Shown here in pieces: positions 5,396 through 21,080 of a DNA stretch of 42,177 bases. Origin of the DNA: Acidimicrobiales bacterium (GTDB lineage Bacteria > Actinomycetota > Acidimicrobiia > Acidimicrobiales > Ilumatobacteraceae); NCBI GenBank assembly GCA_025463415.1, contig JAOBWO010000102.1, positions 1 through 42,177 of the forward strand. Reading direction: 5' to 3'. The position numbers were made by a program, and so were the translations under genes. Each line of letters starts with the position of its first letter. Positions within the stretch are counted from its first letter, which is position 1. The notes beneath the pieces are model-generated. The model was given only the letters and a program-made list of their open reading frames with translations. It made no database searches and was not told the DNA's origin.

Positions 5396-5727
5396 CAGCT
5401 GCTTCGCTTCGGAGCCGCGGCGTCGAGCGGCCCGGCCACCTGGTTGCGCAACCCGGCGACGATCCGTGCACCGCCGAGCGGGATGAGCGCGACGTTGCGG
5501 CCGATGCCCGGCTCGAAGCGCACCGAGGTGCCGGCCGCGATGTCGAGTCGACGGCCACGTGCTGCGTCACGATCGAAGGACAGACCCGGGTTCGCCTCGG
5601 CGAAGTGGTAGTGCGAGCCGACCTGGATCGGCCGATCGGCGGCGTTCATCACGGTCAGTTCGATCGCGACGGCACCAGCGTTCAGCACGAGCGTGCCGTC
5701 GGGTCCGAACACCTCGCCCGGGATCAT
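5395..5727 (-). CDS. ureB: Urease subunit beta
   Basis: Small structural subunit that packs against UreC. It has 110 residues from [11 protein letters not shown], with the family motifs [19 protein letters not shown] near residues 30-50 and 'RFEPG' near 80. The start at 5727 is chosen because MIPGE is the normal family N-terminus and AGGTGA lies just upstream, 7 nt after the ureA stop; the open frame to 5775 would overlap ureA. It is separate from ureA, unlike the fused form of Helicobacter. Confidence 0.97.
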
Positions 5728-5734
5728 CGGCCGC

Positions 5735-6037
5735 TCACCTGATCGGCTGGTGCAGGGTGACCAGCTTGGTGCCATCGGGAAAGGTGGCCTCGATCTGCAC
5801 CTCGTCGACGAGCTCGGCGATGCCGTCCATCACGTCGTCTCTGGACAGGACGCGGGTGCCGGCGTCCATCAGATCGACCACGGTGCGACCGTCGCGGGCG
5901 GCCTCGTAGACCCACGAAGTCAAGATCGCGACGGTCTCCGGGTAGTTCAGCTTCAACCCGCGCGCCTGGCGGGCGAGAGCCACCTGGGCGGCGACGTGCA
6001 CGAGCAGACGCTCCTGTTCGTGCTGGGACAGCTGCAT
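5735..6037 (-). CDS. ureA: Urease subunit gamma
   Basis: First gene of the urease operon, encoding the 100-residue gamma subunit of the (alpha-beta-gamma)3 complex. Recognisable family segments are [18 protein letters not shown], '[10 protein letters not shown]' near 25-34 and '[13 protein letters not shown]'-like sequence at the end ([17 protein letters not shown]). A TAAGAT box lies 7 nt before the ATG, so the transcript is probably leaderless and begins at this start codon. The divergent methyltransferase gene begins 68 nt away. Regulation by nitrogen is likely for such operons but I see no recognisable operator. Confidence 0.97.
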
Positions 6038-15832: not shown

Positions 15833-17212
15833 TCACTCACTGACCACTGGGAGGACGAAGCCGACGACGGCACCACCATCGGGATGGTTGTCGGCGAACG
15901 TCGAACCTCCGTGTGCGCCGGCGACCTCGGTGACGATCGACAACCCGAGCCCGGAACCCGGTTGCGAGCGGGCCTCAACGGAGCGGAAGAAGCGATCAAA
16001 GACGCGGTCGAGATCCGCCGGCTCGATGCCGGGCCCGTGATCGCGCACAGCGACCCGGCCCTCCAGCGCGGAGACCTCGATCGGTACGTCGGTGGGGTCG
16101 AACTTGGCGGCGTTGTCGAGCAGGTTGGTGATCGCACGTTCCAGGAGCAGCCGCTGCGCCAGCACCCGCGAACCGTCGGCGTCCACGGTGATCGTCCGAC
16201 CGGTGCGCCGCCCGACGCGCTCGGCTGCGGCGTGCACGGCATCGGCCAACGGCATCGGACGGGAGACCTCGTCGCTCGACCGTCCGGACCCGACGGCGAC
16301 GACCTCTTCGACCAACGCCGACAGCTCGGCGACCTCAGTGTCGAGATCGTCGAGCACCTTCGACCGCGTGTCGCTCGGCAGGTCGGTGTGCCGGCGGAGC
16401 ACGTCGACGTTGGTGCGCAGGCTGGTCAACGGTGTGCGCAGCTCGTGACCTGCGTCCTGCACCAGCCGCTGCTGCTGCTCACGCGAGCGTGACAGCGCAC
16501 CGAGCATCGACGAGAACGCGGTGCCCAGTCGCCCCACCTCGTCGCGCCCGTTCGCGGTCACGTCGATGTCGAGGCGACCCGTGGTGGAGACCTCGCCGGC
16601 AGCGTCGGTGAGCTTGCGCAGAGACTTCGTCAGGCCGCGCGCGAACAGCCATCCGGCCACCGCGGCGAGGCCTACAGCGATGCTGCCGACGAGCAGGATG
16701 CGGGTCCGGAGATCGTCCAGGACGCGTTCCATCTCGGACAGGTCGCGTCCGAGCTGGAACGTCACCAGCTCGTTGGCCCGGCTGTAGACGCGGTACTCGT
16801 GGCCATCCGACGCGGTGACCGTGCGCAGCACGCTGCCCTTCCCGATCGCGGCGATCCGGATCTCGTCGGCATCGGGTTGGAACGACACGTCCACGGTGCC
16901 GCGGACCCGCCTGCCGTCGCGTCCGAGGATCTGGGTGACGAACTGCTCGATGCCGAACGGTCGGATCGTGTCACCGTTCGGCGTCTCCGGCGGGCCGCCG
17001 CCACCGACGCCGACTCCGTTCCCGGGCACGACAGGAAACGCACCCTCGCCCGGCAGCCGGTTGCCACGCGCGTCGTTCGCGTTGCGGAGCGTGTTGTCGA
17101 TCTCGGACAACATCCGGTCGCTCGTCGCGTCGTAGCTCAGCCAGCCGACGCTCATCGCCGCGAGCGCGGCGAGCGAGGCCAGCACCAAGGCCAGCTTGGC
17201 GCGCAGGCTCAC
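15833..17212 (-). CDS. Sensor histidine kinase, MprB/TcrY-like
   Basis: 459-residue membrane kinase. Membrane helices lie at about 7-25 and 172-192, enclosing an external loop of about 145 residues with a Gly/Pro-rich stretch. A HAMP linker (about 193-245) and the HisKA domain with H256 (DAGHELRTPLTSLRTN) follow, then the ATP-binding domain with N-box NLLDNAAKFDP, the G1 motif DHGPGIEP, F-box VFDRFFR and G2 GSGLGLSIV. All motifs are intact. It starts at GTG 17212, 10 nt after the stop of the response regulator. MprB-like kinases sense envelope stress; the ligand here is unknown. It converges with the lipoprotein gene, 24 nt apart. Confidence 0.94.
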   Translation of the reverse strand: MSLRAKLALVLASLAALAAMSVGWLSYDATSDRMLSEIDNTLRNANDARGNRLPGEGAFPVVPGNGVGVGGGGPPETPNGDTIRPFGIEQFVTQILGRDGRRVRGTVDVSFQPDADEIRIAAIGKGSVLRTVTASDGHEYRVYSRANELVTFQLGRDLSEMERVLDDLRTRILLVGSIAVGLAAVAGWLFARGLTKSLRKLTDAAGEVSTTGRLDIDVTANGRDEVGRLGTAFSSMLGALSRSREQQQRLVQDAGHELRTPLTSLRTNVDVLRRHTDLPSDTRSKVLDDLDTEVAELSALVEEVVAVGSGRSSDEVSRPMPLADAVHAAAERVGRRTGRTITVDADGSRVLAQRLLLERAITNLLDNAAKFDPTDVPIEVSALEGRVAVRDHGPGIEPADLDRVFDRFFRSVEARSQPGSGLGLSIVTEVAGAHGGSTFADNHPDGGAVVGFVLPVVSE

Positions 17213-17222
17213 GATGCGACGT

Positions 17223-17915
17223 TCACTTGGTGCGCACGGTGTAGCCGACGCCGCGCACCGTGTGGATCAACGGCGAGCGGCCCTCGGTGTCGATCTTGCG
17301 GCGGAGGTAGCCGATGTAGACGGCGAGGTTCTTCGAGTCGGGGCCGAAGTCGTAGCCCCAGATCCGTTCGTAGATCGTGCTCTGGTCGAGCACGATGCCG
17401 CTGTTGCGGACGAGCAGCTCCAGCAAGTCGAACTCGGTCTTGGACAGGTCGATCTCGTCGCCGCCGACCCAAACTCGGCGCGCGGCAGATTCGAGGCGCA
17501 GGTCGCCGACCGAGACGCTGGAGGTCTCGCTGGCCTCGTCCGGCTGCGAGCGGCGGAGCAGGGCGCGCAGCCGGGCGAGGAGCTCGTCGAGCGCGAAGGG
17601 CTTGGTCAGGTAGTCGTCGGCGCCGGCGTCGAGCCCGGCGACGCGATCGGACGTCTCCGTGCGCGCGGTCACCATCAGGATCGGCACCCGGTTCTTCTCG
17701 CTGCGCAGCACCCGGCACGCGGTGAGCCCGTCGACGACCGGCATCATCACGTCGAGCACCACGACGTCCGCCGGCTCGGCGCGCAGCGCCTCCAAGGCCT
17801 GGGCACCGTCGGACACGGCGGTCACGTCGTACCCCTCCAGGGTGAGGGCGCGGGTCAACGACTCACGCACGGCGCGTTCGTCCTCGGCAACCACGATTCG
17901 ACAGCCGCTGCTCAT
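17223..17915 (-). CDS. OmpR/PhoB-family response regulator, MprA-like
   Basis: 230 residues. The receiver domain has acidic E11-D12, the phosphoacceptor D55 (VVLDVMMP), T84 and K105 (DYLTKPF). The C-terminal winged-helix domain (about 135-230) contains LSKTEFDLLELL, the turn 'VLDQSTIYERIWGYDFGPDSKNLAVYIGYLRRKI' region and the end VRGVGYTVR. It is the cognate regulator of the downstream kinase and is first in the operon. The start at 17915 is chosen because the receiver fold begins there; a run of open frame extends upstream. A direct repeat at 17963-17978 may be an autoregulatory site. Confidence 0.95.
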   Translation of the reverse strand: MSSGCRIVVAEDERAVRESLTRALTLEGYDVTAVSDGAQALEALRAEPADVVVLDVMMPVVDGLTACRVLRSEKNRVPILMVTARTETSDRVAGLDAGADDYLTKPFALDELLARLRALLRRSQPDEASETSSVSVGDLRLESAARRVWVGGDEIDLSKTEFDLLELLVRNSGIVLDQSTIYERIWGYDFGPDSKNLAVYIGYLRRKIDTEGRSPLIHTVRGVGYTVRTK

Positions 17916-17962
17916 CCTCGCCCCACTTCGATCCCGTCGTGCTTCAGGTCTAGGCGCAGAGC

Positions 17963-17978
17963 GTAAGAGGGTGGTGAG
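17963..17978 (-). repeat. Direct repeat upstream of the response regulator
   Basis: Plus strand GTAAG-N6-GTGAG, period 11 bp, 48-63 bp before the regulator start. It is similar in half-site and spacing to the repeat at 12559-12574. Possible autoregulation site; not verified. Confidence 0.3.
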
Positions 17979-18001
17979 AACACCGGGTGGATCGGGCGAG
18001 A

Positions 18002-18946
18002 TCAGTCGATCGACCCTCGGAGCACGTCGACCCAGTCCTCCGCGTCGCGCCATCGCGCATCCGCGTGCTCACGGGCGGAGTGGGCGTGCTCGCCGGCTGC
18101 GGGATAGGAGCCGAGGAACTTCACGCCGCCCTGCTTGGCGTGCAGCGACCGCAGCGCATCGGCCAGCAGCTCGTCCGCGATGTGACCATCCGCGTAGAGG
18201 ATGAAGCAGTAGTCGCCGAGCCCACCCCGTTTGGTGGGACGGCTGAGCAGGTTGCTGAGGTTGATCCGGCGCGCCGCGAACTCCTGGAGGATGCTGATCA
18301 GGCTGCCCGGCGCGTCGGCGCGCTGGTAGACGACCACCGCGGTGCGGTCGTGGCCGGTCGGTGCGGGAACCCGACCCTTGCCGACCAGTACGAACCGGGT
18401 CTGGTTGCCCTCGCTGTCGGCGATGCCGGCGTCGATCACCTCGAGCCCGTAGAGCGCACCGGCCACCCGCGGCGCGATGACGGCGAATCCCGGCTGAGGG
18501 CGCTCGGCGAGCACGCGTGCGGCCTCGGCAGTGCTGTTCGCCGCCTGGAACTCCACGTTCGGGAGGCGCTTGCGGAGGTACTGGTGGCACTGCGCGATCG
18601 CGACCGGGATCGACACGACGGTGGTGACATCGTCGAGCAACGTTCCGGCGCCGGCCAACAGGCAGTGCTCGATGTCGAGCACGACCTCGCGCTGGATCAG
18701 CAGGTCGTGATCGAACGCGAGCGCGTCCTGGGTGAAGTTGACCGTGCCCTCGATCGAGTTCTCGATCGGCACGAAGCCGAGATCGACCTCGTCGGCGTCG
18801 ACCGCGTCGAGCACGTCGGGCACCGTTCGATACGCCACGAGCTGACCGGCGGCGAGATCCGCCTGCGTCTGCAGGGCCTGCTCGGTGAACGTGCCGAAGG
18901 GCCCGAAGAAGCCGATCCGCACTGTGTCATTCGAGTTCGTGGCCAT
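18002..18946 (-). CDS. pheA: Prephenate dehydratase
   Basis: Converts prephenate to phenylpyruvate in phenylalanine synthesis. Of 314 residues, the catalytic domain has FFGPFGTFTEQAL (13-25), ENSIEGTVN (62-70), STAEAAR near 138 and the catalytic Thr in NQTRF (T183). An ACT domain at about 195-280 (DAPGSLISILQEFAARRINLS, split by SRP) provides feedback inhibition by phenylalanine. It is the monofunctional form without chorismate mutase. The ATG at 18946 follows a TAGCCT box by 6 nt, so it is probably leaderless. The last 35 residues (EHAHSAREHADARWRD...) are an extension beyond the ACT domain. Confidence 0.97.
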   Translation of the reverse strand: MATNSNDTVRIGFFGPFGTFTEQALQTQADLAAGQLVAYRTVPDVLDAVDADEVDLGFVPIENSIEGTVNFTQDALAFDHDLLIQREVVLDIEHCLLAGAGTLLDDVTTVVSIPVAIAQCHQYLRKRLPNVEFQAANSTAEAARVLAERPQPGFAVIAPRVAGALYGLEVIDAGIADSEGNQTRFVLVGKGRVPAPTGHDRTAVVVYQRADAPGSLISILQEFAARRINLSNLLSRPTKRGGLGDYCFILYADGHIADELLADALRSLHAKQGGVKFLGSYPAAGEHAHSAREHADARWRDAEDWVDVLRGSID

Positions 18947-18958: not shown

Positions 18959-19044
18959 CGGCACGAGGTGCTCCGCGACCCTCGACAATTGACCCTGGTC
19001 GGTTGACGGCGACATCGGCAGGTCCGCCGAGGAGGCACGGGCCG

Positions 19045-19050
19045 TAGCAT
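19045..19050 (+). promoter_or_regulatory. -10 box of larB (leaderless)
   Basis: TAGCAT lies 7 nt before GTG 19058. The ATG at 19049 overlaps the box itself, which argues for the GTG as start. Confidence 0.5.
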
Positions 19051-19057
19051 GCTCGCC

Positions 19058-19795
19058 GTGAACGAGGCCGACATCCGTCAGTTGCTCGACGACGTGCGCG
19101 ACGGCTCGTTGAGCCCCGACGACGCTGTCGCGACCTTGCGACGGTTGCCCTTCGCCGACGTCGGCGATGCACTCGTCGATCACCACCGCTCGCTCCGTCA
19201 AGGCATGCCCGAGGCCATCTACGGACCGGGCAAATCACCGGAACAGGTCGTGCGGATCGTGGGCGAGCTGCTGGCCCACGGCACCGACCCGGTGCTGCTC
19301 ACCCGCGCGTCGGCCGAGCAGGTCGAGGCCGCGGCGCTGGCCCACGGCGAACCCGAGCAGTCGGGAGCCGCGGCGCTCTGGCGCAGGCCGCGGGCATGGC
19401 GGTTCTCGAAGGTGCTGGTGCTGTCCGCAGGCACCGCCGATCAACCGGTGGTCGACGAGTGCATGCTGACCCTCTCCGCGCACGGCTTCGCCGCTGATCA
19501 GATCAGCGACGTGGGCGTGGCAGGCCTGCATCGCCTGCTGGCCCGGCTCGACGACGTCACCAAGGCCGACGCGATCGTGGTGATCGCCGGCATGGAGGGC
19601 GCACTGGCGAGCGTGATCGGTGGGCTCACCGCCGCACCGGTCGTGGCCGTCCCGACCAGCGTCGGCTACGGCAGCGGCCTGGAGGGCGTCACCGCCCTGC
19701 TGGCGATGCACGCCGCATGCGCCAGCGGGATCACCGTGGTCGGCATCGACAACGGCTTCGGGGCTGCCTGCGCGATCGCGCGGATGGCTCAGTGA
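19058..19795 (+). CDS. larB: Pyridinium-3,5-biscarboxylic acid mononucleotide synthase LarB
   Basis: LarB carboxylates and hydrolyses nicotinic acid adenine dinucleotide, the first step to the nickel-pincer cofactor of lactate racemase and related LarA enzymes. The 245 residues carry the family signatures DHHRSLRQGMPEAIYG near 46-61, SAGTADQPV (about 127) and a PurE-like C-terminus: IAGMEGALASVIGG, PTSVGYG and GIDNGFGAA. The start is GTG 19058, or ATG 19049 three codons earlier. It is first in an operon with larC; larE and larA are not in the window, so they are elsewhere or missing. The gene is divergent from pheA. Confidence 0.93.
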   Translation: MNEADIRQLLDDVRDGSLSPDDAVATLRRLPFADVGDALVDHHRSLRQGMPEAIYGPGKSPEQVVRIVGELLAHGTDPVLLTRASAEQVEAAALAHGEPEQSGAAALWRRPRAWRFSKVLVLSAGTADQPVVDECMLTLSAHGFAADQISDVGVAGLHRLLARLDDVTKADAIVVIAGMEGALASVIGGLTAAPVVAVPTSVGYGSGLEGVTALLAMHAACASGITVVGIDNGFGAACAIARMAQ

Positions 19796-19805
19796 GGATC
19801 GCTCG

Positions 19806-19861
19806 ATGAAGACAGCCCGATGAGCACAGCCCAATGAACACAGCCCAATGAACACAGCATG
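19806..19861 (+). repeat. Four-copy 14-bp tandem repeat forming mini-ORFs before larC
   Basis: Copies start at 19806, 19820, 19834 and 19848 with unit ATGAACACAGCCCA; copy 1 (ATGAAGACAGCCCG), copy 2 (ATGAGCACAGCCCA) and copy 4 (ATGAACACAGCATG) differ slightly. Each of the first three encodes a five-codon ORF (MKTAR, MSTAQ, MNTAQ) whose TGA stop overlaps the ATG of the next copy. The fourth copy is the start of larC itself (MNTAW). GAGGA at 19794-19798 lies 7 nt before the first ATG; larC has no ribosome site of its own. Translation may reach larC by repeated termination and restart. Confidence 0.85.
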
Positions 19862-21080
19862 GTTCCACTGCTTCGCCGGCACGGCGGGCGACATGACCAT
19901 GGGGGCGTTGATCGACGCCGGCGCGGATCCCGTCGCTGTGATGGAGATCGTCGGAGCGCTCGGCCTCGACGGCTACGCGCTCACGTTCGAGCCGGTGATG
20001 CGCTGCGGGGTCGCCGCCACCCACGCCGCCGTCGTCGTCGACGACCACTCGCACGACGACCACTCGCACGACGACCAGCCCCACGACGGTCACTCCCACG
20101 ACGGCCACGGGCATCGGCCGTACCGGGTCATCCGCGAGCTGCTCCTGGGCGCGGAGCTGCCACAGCGAGTGCGCGAGCGCGCCCTCGCCACCTTCGACGC
20201 ACTGGCCGAGGTCGAAGGCGCGATGCACCGCATGCCGCCGCTCGAGGTCGAGTTCCACGAGGTCGGCTCGGTCGACGCGATCGTCGACATCGTCGGCACG
20301 TGCGCCGCGCTGGAGGTGCTCGGCATCGACAGGATCGTGTGCAGCCCGATCGCGGTCAGCCGCGGCACGGTGCACGCTGCGCACGGCGAGCTGCCCACGC
20401 CGGCACCCGCCGTCGCCGGCCTGCTGGCCCGCCGCAACGCACCCGCGTTCGGCATCGACAGCCGCAAGGAGATCGCCACACCCACCGGCGTCGCGCTGAT
20501 GACAGCGCTGGCCGAGGACTTCGGCCCGCTACCGGCGATGCGCGTGGGCGCAGTCGGCTACGGAGCCGGCACGGCCGACATCCCGGGCCGGCCCAACGTC
20601 GTCCAGGTCGTGATCGGCGACGCGGACGCCATGTCGGCGATGGCCATGCGCGGTCAGCCGATGCGTCTGCTGGAGGTCAACGTCGACGACGTCACCGGCG
20701 AGGTCATCGCACACACCATCGGTGCGTTGCTCGACGCCGGCGCCAACGATGCGTGGGCCACCCCGATCGTGATGAAGAAGGGTCGCCCGGCGCACACGGT
20801 GCACGCGCTCTGCGACCCGGCACTCGCCGCGGCCGTCGCCGGAGTGTTGATCGGCGAGACCGGTTCGCTCGGTGTGCGCGGCACGACGATCGAGCGGTGG
20901 CCGCAGCAGCGACGCGACGGTGTCGTCGACGTCGAGGGCCATCCGGTTCGGGTCAAGCTTGCTGCGGGACGGGTCAAGGTCGAGAACGACGACGCGGTCG
21001 CGGCTGCGCGCTCACTCGGATGGCCGCTGCGTGCGGTGCTCACCGCGGCCGAGGCACTCGGCTGGTCGCTCGACGAGTGA
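19848..21080 (+). CDS. larC: Nickel-inserting enzyme LarC
   Basis: LarC inserts nickel into the pincer cofactor precursor, using CTP. The 410 residues begin HCFAGTAGDMTMGALIDAGAD (split around DMT), the family's N-terminal signature. A His/Asp-rich insertion at 67-89 (HSHDDHSHDD...) probably holds nickel. Later motifs include EFHEVGSVDAIVDIVG, GTVHAAHGELPTPAPA, ATPTGVAL and, in the C-terminal domain, EVNVDDVTGE and ATPIVMKKGRP. In Lactobacillus LarC is made through a programmed frameshift; here it is one uninterrupted frame. The start is the fourth unit of a tandem repeat of mini-ORFs, 52 nt after larB. Confidence 0.95.
   Translation: MNTAWFHCFAGTAGDMTMGALIDAGADPVAVMEIVGALGLDGYALTFEPVMRCGVAATHAAVVVDDHSHDDHSHDDQPHDGHSHDGHGHRPYRVIRELLLGAELPQRVRERALATFDALAEVEGAMHRMPPLEVEFHEVGSVDAIVDIVGTCAALEVLGIDRIVCSPIAVSRGTVHAAHGELPTPAPAVAGLLARRNAPAFGIDSRKEIATPTGVALMTALAEDFGPLPAMRVGAVGYGAGTADIPGRPNVVQVVIGDADAMSAMAMRGQPMRLLEVNVDDVTGEVIAHTIGALLDAGANDAWATPIVMKKGRPAHTVHALCDPALAAAVAGVLIGETGSLGVRGTTIERWPQQRRDGVVDVEGHPVRVKLAAGRVKVENDDAVAAARSLGWPLRAVLTAAEALGWSLDE

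Follow-up and report, generated by a model that had tools for sequence, protein, structure and literature searches.

Overlapping mini-ORFs between larB and larC as a probable stop-start relay in a genome of the Ilumatobacteraceae

The larB and larC genes of an Acidimicrobiales bacterium of the family Ilumatobacteraceae (assembly GCA_025463415.1) lie within a 42,177-nucleotide (nt) stretch of contig JAOBWO010000102.1, here called the window, and the 52 nt that intervene between them are bridged by a chain of very short open reading frames (mini-ORFs). This array is probably a stop-start relay, in which serial termination and reinitiation would keep the two genes translationally coupled across the 52-nt gap. 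The genome that carries the window (G000) is an assembly of 4.70 Mb in 482 contigs and is 76% complete. The features at the junction are as follows.

19049..19795, + strand: larB (LarB model NF033503, E=8.6e-71); its TGA stop at 19793-19795 overlaps GTG 19792
19792..19809, + strand: mini-ORF 0, GTG AGG ATC GCT CGA TGA, encoding MRIAR; read from the sequence, with counterpart units in G217 and G214
19794..19798, + strand: GAGGA, Shine-Dalgarno-like, 7 nt before ATG 19806; duplex energy -6.5 at mini-ORF 1
19806..19823, + strand: mini-ORF 1, encoding MKTAR; read from the sequence
19820..19837, + strand: mini-ORF 2, encoding MSTAQ; read from the sequence
19834..19851, + strand: mini-ORF 3, encoding MNTAQ; read from the sequence, its stop overlapping the larC start
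19848..21080, + strand: larC, 410 aa in one frame with LarC1 and LarC2 domains (TIGR00299, E=9.8e-56; NF052512, E=7.9e-32); no Shine-Dalgarno site is recognisable at its start

The 14-nt copies are ATGAAGACAGCCCG (19806-19819), ATGAGCACAGCCCA (19820-19833) and ATGAACACAGCCCA (19834-19847), followed by the larC copy ATGAACACAGCATGG from 19848, and the TGA stops at 19821, 19835 and 19849 each overlap the following ATG. A first-pass annotation of this DNA had described four 14-bp copies and three five-codon ORFs linked into larC by TGA/ATG overlaps, and this anatomy is confirmed both in the sequence and by Tandem Repeats Finder (19806-19858, period 14, 3.8 copies, 89% matches). The repeats are as it noted, but it missed one unit, which extends the chain back to larB itself. 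The end of larB reads CAG TGA, the last G of which together with the stop forms GTGA, placing a GTG in a 4-nt overlap with the larB stop; this GTG sits exactly 14 nt before ATG 19806, and the TGA of the mini-ORF that it opens ends on that ATG. There are thus four mini-ORFs, in the order larB, MRIAR, MKTAR, MSTAQ, MNTAQ, larC, with five starts (19792, 19806, 19820, 19834 and, for larC, 19848) spaced by 14 nt and a stop/start overlap of 4 nt at all five links.

The identities of the flanking genes are secure, as the NCBIfam LarB, LarC1 and LarC2 models all exceed their cut-offs, and the larC start is supported by relatives, in which MNTAWFHC aligns. Lactobacillus-type larC consists of two frames joined by a frameshift; G000 differs in having a single ORF that holds both LarC1 and LarC2. 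Within larC, at 20039-20108 (+), there is an in-frame 15-bp tandem repeat (DDHSHDDHSHDD...) coding a His/Asp-rich stretch that possibly binds metal. A two-copy pattern of the 14-nt unit has three overlapping matches in the assembly, all at larBC, and the backward pattern has none. An assembly artefact was considered and rejected, since the copies differ from each other, relatives have versions of their own, and chains are present at further gene pairs.

In the proposed mechanism, a ribosome finishing larB at TGA 19793 would restart on the overlapping GTG, make five residues, terminate at a TGA overlapping the following ATG, and repeat the cycle up to the larC start; because each link is a 4-nt overlap, coupling would be kept despite the 52-nt stretch. 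GAGGA could additionally let ribosomes in at the second mini-ORF of the chain. Serial termination and restart had already been suggested, with entry at the first ATG copy; the serial part has indirect support from copies that vary with the chain intact and from the path comparison below, and the entry point is moved here to GTG 19792. That ribosomes translate the mini-ORFs, with some efficiency at each step, is what we infer from this arrangement. In excerpts of a reporter study in Escherichia coli and Haloferax volcanii (PMC10666635), coupling drops steeply with distance and is almost abolished at ~20 nt, and in E. coli a gap of 38 nt removes 80-90% of the coupling at two gene pairs and all of it at a third. 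By this measure, the larB-larC gap would uncouple the genes in the absence of a relay.

Comparison with relatives shows how the junction varies. There are LarC matches in 112 of 221 family genomes; 103 larBC loci were taken and 96 scored, seven being skipped (five without larB, one far, one without larC). Eighty-five of the 96 junctions are direct (57 plain overlaps and 28 with an in-frame N-terminal extension), six are relays, five have no overlapping start, and none is broken. Within the genus, G000 has four mini-ORFs, G214 has three that are diverged (LarC 83% identical), G217 has one (LarC 91% identical), and there is a plain larB/larC overlap in G213, G215, G218, G219 and G220; G216 has a TAG stop and a fragmented larC match. 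The expectation that loss or gain of copies leaves the chain intact thus holds among the relatives compared, with 4, 3, 1 and 0 mini-ORFs, and copies could be gained or lost in 14-nt steps with both proteins untouched. In another genus, G131 has two 14-nt larBC mini-ORFs (ATGACCGGACCGGG, ATGATCGGACTGGG) unrelated in sequence to those of G000, and G114 and G129 have one unit each, of 20 and 26 nt.

If ribosomes restart on a codon that overlaps the stop, an insertion at the junction is harmless only where the path still enters the next gene, and insertions would be expected to persist as 3n bases (an N-terminal extension) or as 3n+2 per unit (a relay); if there is no such restart, insertion length should not matter. 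Two further gene pairs were scored alongside larBC. One is nifS-mnmA, for which 70 loci were taken out of 203 matching genomes and one was skipped, and the 69 junctions include 37 direct, 15 relay, 17 without an overlapping start and none broken. Within the genus of G000 this junction has three 14-nt units in G000, two in G217 and a 15-nt in-frame extension in G214, and in two other genera there are three 14-nt units (G205) and two (G194). At the nifS-mnmA junction of G207 (L478) there are four repeats of 18, 18, 18 and 17 bp; they add up to 71 nt, a 3n+2 length, and form one 24-codon ORF ending on the mnmA start.

The third pair was chosen from nine plain overlaps in G000 contigs with the relatives unseen. 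It consists of trpD, for anthranilate phosphoribosyltransferase (356 bits against a cut-off of 199), followed by a homoserine-kinase-like gene (TIGR00191, 167.3 bits, below the cut-off of 168.25). Fifty loci out of 56 matching genomes gave 19 direct junctions (12 plain, 7 extended), nine relays, 22 without an overlapping start and none broken; one of the relays has four steps, two of them of 17 nt.

Pooling the three pairs, the path is connected in all 67 junctions that have an overlapping start and a gap of >3 nt, 30 of them by relay. Control junctions, in which the stop forms no ATG, GTG or TTG (CTGA or TAG), were scored by the identical rule, and 22 of 31 are connected and nine are broken (p=1.3e-5). 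With like cases merged the comparison is 37/37 vs 14/23 (p=5.5e-5), the merging keys differing slightly between the groups in that the control key adds four stop bases. Joint probabilities under a shuffle-and-jitter null are 7e-12 for 24 larBC events, 2e-4 for 16 nifS-mnmA events and 3e-7 for 16 third-pair junctions (unmerged), and are to be read as indications because the events are not fully independent.

The variation in copy number raises the question of whether it is itself selected, with each step losing some ribosomes and the number of steps setting the LarC:LarB ratio. The close species G000, G217 and G214 do differ, with 4, 1 and 3 units at larBC and 3, 2 and 0 at nifS-mnmA. However, the numbers at the two junctions are not parallel, and drift among tolerated states yields the same pattern, so that from the sequences we regard a selected ratio as doubtful.

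A different possibility is that larB termination contributes little, and that ribosomes enter at GAGGA, which would direct them to mini-ORF 1 in G000 and immediately to larC in G217. As first annotated, GAGGA (19794-19798) precedes only the first ATG copy, and it lies 7 nt before the ATG in both G000 and G217, with an energy of -6.5 in each. Shine-Dalgarno pairing energies, computed with the canonical anti-Shine-Dalgarno tail, which may not be this genome's own, are strong for larB in G000 (-11.0) and moderate for mini-ORF 1 (-6.5), and sites are weak or absent at mini-ORF 2 (-0.3), mini-ORF 3 (-1.9) and larC (+0.4 kcal/mol, vs a median of -5.8 at the 57 plain-overlap larC starts in the family). 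The chain would therefore still be required from mini-ORF 1 onwards, and since GAGGA shares bases with the larB stop the two entries are not mutually exclusive. Sites in G214 (-7.9 at the third mini-ORF, -6.3 at larC) speak for direct entry, yet this genome keeps the chain without GAGGA. Entry at GAGGA in place of larB termination is accordingly an improbable account of the junction as a whole. An internal promoter or a direct ribosome site at larC had been named at the outset as what would speak against a relay; neither was seen in G000, where scanning 19000-19950 for the sigma-70 consensus gave no promoter, other promoter types lying outside the scan. The RNA fold of the junction has an energy of -96.7 kcal/mol over 230 nt and was not used for any conclusion.

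Arrays of this kind are also present at other gene borders. The pattern (RTGA N10)x3 RTGA matches 46 of the 221 family genomes, and many of the arrays bridge two long open frames via a chain (10 of 20 in a hand-picked subset); gene calls at arrays are based on open frames together with position-specific GC, protein models supporting the named pairs only. One example is on G000 contig C178, where a NifS-type cysteine desulfurase and mnmA are linked by the three 14-nt mini-ORFs described above. Other examples are ribosomal protein S1 and dephospho-CoA kinase (rpsA-coaE) and an FtsW-like and a MurG-like gene (best models just below cut-off), both in G131, a YceG-family protein and shikimate dehydrogenase, a substrate-binding protein and an ABC permease, and a seven-unit array between a histidine kinase and an FGGY kinase. 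The five-start pattern (RTGA N10)x4 RTGA occurs in 13 of 396 phylum genomes, G000 among them, and four of 21 arrays in this sample pass as relays, including the window's own; the 7.8-Mb genome G544 has six units between two ABC-permease genes.

Spacing bears on whether these arrays are read. Relays between coding-like ORFs make up 11 of 52 arrays at spacing 14, 5 of 22 at 11 and 7 of 21 at 17, and 1 of 16, 1 of 18 and 1 of 24 at spacings 10, 13 and 16, with none of 20 at spacing 15, where arrays appear dominated by in-frame repeats. The relay share is thus 23/95 for spacings 11, 14 and 17 vs 3/58 for 10, 13 and 16 (Fisher p=0.002). The 52 spacing-14 arrays come from 30 loci given by the pattern search and 20 hand-picked from its list, and two of the eleven relays are the one locus L301.

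A simpler explanation would be a neutral minisatellite grown by slippage, with ribosomes reaching larC by another route (scanning, or weak initiation at its own start) and the mini-ORFs incidental. Consistent with this, tandem RTGA arrays occur at all spacings tried, many of them outside gene borders, and several arrays that did not score as relays are built of a TGATCAGGCCC-like repeat. Neutral insertions are nevertheless expected in any frame, yet the path is kept in 67/67 junctions with null probabilities of <=2e-4 for each pair, and the reporters show poor coupling over gaps of 20-40 nt. We therefore think it unlikely that the larB-larC array is only a by-product of slippage.

Several observations weigh against the relay interpretation. 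Downstream starts often have their own ribosome site (-6.3 for G214 larC, and a median of -6.8 at the 15 nifS-mnmA relays), and in three of four single-unit 17-nt cases the insert itself carries a strong one (-10.9 to -11.0), so that such inserts may act as spacers. In the path comparison, 22 of the 31 control paths are open even without an overlapping ATG, GTG or TTG, the nulls treat events as independent, and two of the three gene pairs were selected for G000 having a relay there. Forty-one of the 52 spacing-14 arrays failed as relays between coding-like ORFs, and two alternative measures of the spacing effect are weaker (stop and start both inside the array, 16/95 vs 4/58, p=0.09; position relative to first and last unit, 21/74 vs 1/18, p=0.06). 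In 60 genomes, RTGA matches and backward controls number 130/23 at spacing 14, 40/13 at 11, 29/6 at 17, 33/7 at 13, 30/7 at 10 and 56/16 at 16, and although spacing 14 alone stands out in array number, the excess is 3- to 6-fold at all six spacings, 3n+1 included; array abundance alone is therefore no evidence for translation or frame selection. Finally, in unselected contigs (173 kb of G000 and 303 kb of G206) one-unit relays are not enriched over controls in which one or two bases after the stop were deleted to shift the frame, the controls being themselves imperfect. G000 contigs C1-C20 have two one-unit relays, vs eight with one base deleted and, with two deleted, no one-unit and one two-unit relay; G206 has three one-unit and one two-unit relays, vs 12 and 2 one-unit relays in the controls; and the window has three one-unit relays and the larBC chain, vs one one-unit and two two-unit relays in the first control and two one-unit relays and one of at least three units in the second. 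Anatomy alone is thus not enough to tell a single-unit relay from chance.

Some additional loci are of interest in their own right. In the window, one 14-nt mini-ORF at 17209-17226 (-), GTG AAC GTC GCA TCG TGA, lies between a response regulator gene (17223-18053, -) and a histidine kinase gene (15833-17212, -), linking the two by a 4-nt overlap at either side, and at 5712-5743 (-) two coding-like ORFs are linked by a single 11-nt stop-start unit. Five loci in five genera (L112, L263, L270, L307 and L313) have arrays of a RTGATCAGGCCC-like unit of 13 or 14 nt with the palindrome TGATCA; none was scored as a relay, and they perhaps represent a different repeat class. At L278, L280, L281, L282 and L290 there are 15-nt RTGA arrays that run from the stop of the upstream frame in frame into the downstream frame (open frames only), and such arrays with repeated in-frame starts are the 3n counterpart of the relay.

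The units appear to have arisen where they are found. They are mostly of 14 bp, with others of 11, 17 and 20, and their sequences are unrelated between junctions. End likeness was tried for 32 listed arrays, four of which yielded no chain; in the remaining 28 the last unit matches the 5′ end of the downstream gene at 5.4 of the 10 bases that follow RTGA (3.0 on permutation, with a maximum of 4.1 in 5000), and the first unit matches the 3′ end of the upstream gene at 5.6 of 10 (permuted 3.1, maximum 4.4). In G206 and G130, unit identity between arrays is 3.2/10 within a genome vs 2.9/10 between the genomes, and the two arrays of G000 differ from each other, their units matching their own flanking gene ends. 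The likeness to flanking ends and the low identity within genomes point to local tandem duplication across the overlap as the likely origin, which at larBC would mean that 14 bp across an ancestral larB/larC overlap were duplicated. Five arrays were identified by orthology, and in these neighbouring units show no differences in the TGA columns vs 41 elsewhere (P=1e-4 if evenly spread); this invariance is partly built in since arrays are recognised by their TGAs, although a lost TGA would have been scored as broken. An operator or attenuator, in which a protein or RNA binds the regular 14-bp direct repeats and ATG and TGA are incidental, is very unlikely given that units vary by junction and species, are scarcely more alike within than between those two genomes, and are invariant in the TGA columns alone.

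The relay resembles termination-reinitiation coupling at ATGA or GTGA, with a -4 overlap at every larB-larC link, and a plain overlap is the state of 57 of the 96 larB/larC junctions; the preserved reading path agrees with downstream translation being dependent on upstream translation, as in such coupling. The relay differs in that the described cases have two genes and one overlap, and here there are one to seven short ORFs in series. The nearest known device is the mycobacterial interspersed repetitive unit (MIRU), reportedly described by Supply et al. in 1997, for example at senX3-regX3. As given in parts of two later accounts (PMC4213456; also PMC12548453), MIRUs such as that at senX3-regX3 occur in tandem copies of strain-variable make-up, with units of 53 and 77 bp that are apparently mobile. 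The larBC array is similar in that its internal ORFs overlap the neighbouring gene by 4 nt and its tandem copies vary, although between species (4/3/1 in G000/G214/G217). It differs in unit size (14 bp vs 53-77 bp), and MIRUs share a dispersed common sequence, in contrast to the low identities of relay units in G206 and G130. The axe-txe minigene (PMC8708949) and a nonsense-ORF booster (PMC13255528), so far as excerpts of these papers describe them, are also dispensable peptide ORFs affecting translation of the next gene, but are single ORFs and not a tandem array born from a gene junction. No description of tandem 14-nt stop-start relays was present among the open-access titles and abstract openings listed.

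Five-codon ORFs are far below the usual length limit of gene callers. It is still debated if ribosomes that have terminated reinitiate in place or scan along the mRNA, and the arrays are natural experiments on this point: the gap widens by 14 nt with each unit and every hop stays a 4-nt overlap, orthologues reveal which insertions are tolerated, and chains of zero to seven units are a ready set for measuring restart efficiency per step. More tentatively, this family and some other genomes of the phylum may have in relays a recurring type of operon element: overlap-born minisatellites that survive only in path-preserving lengths, couple genes over tens of bases, and through a rapidly evolving copy number set how much downstream protein is made relative to the upstream one.
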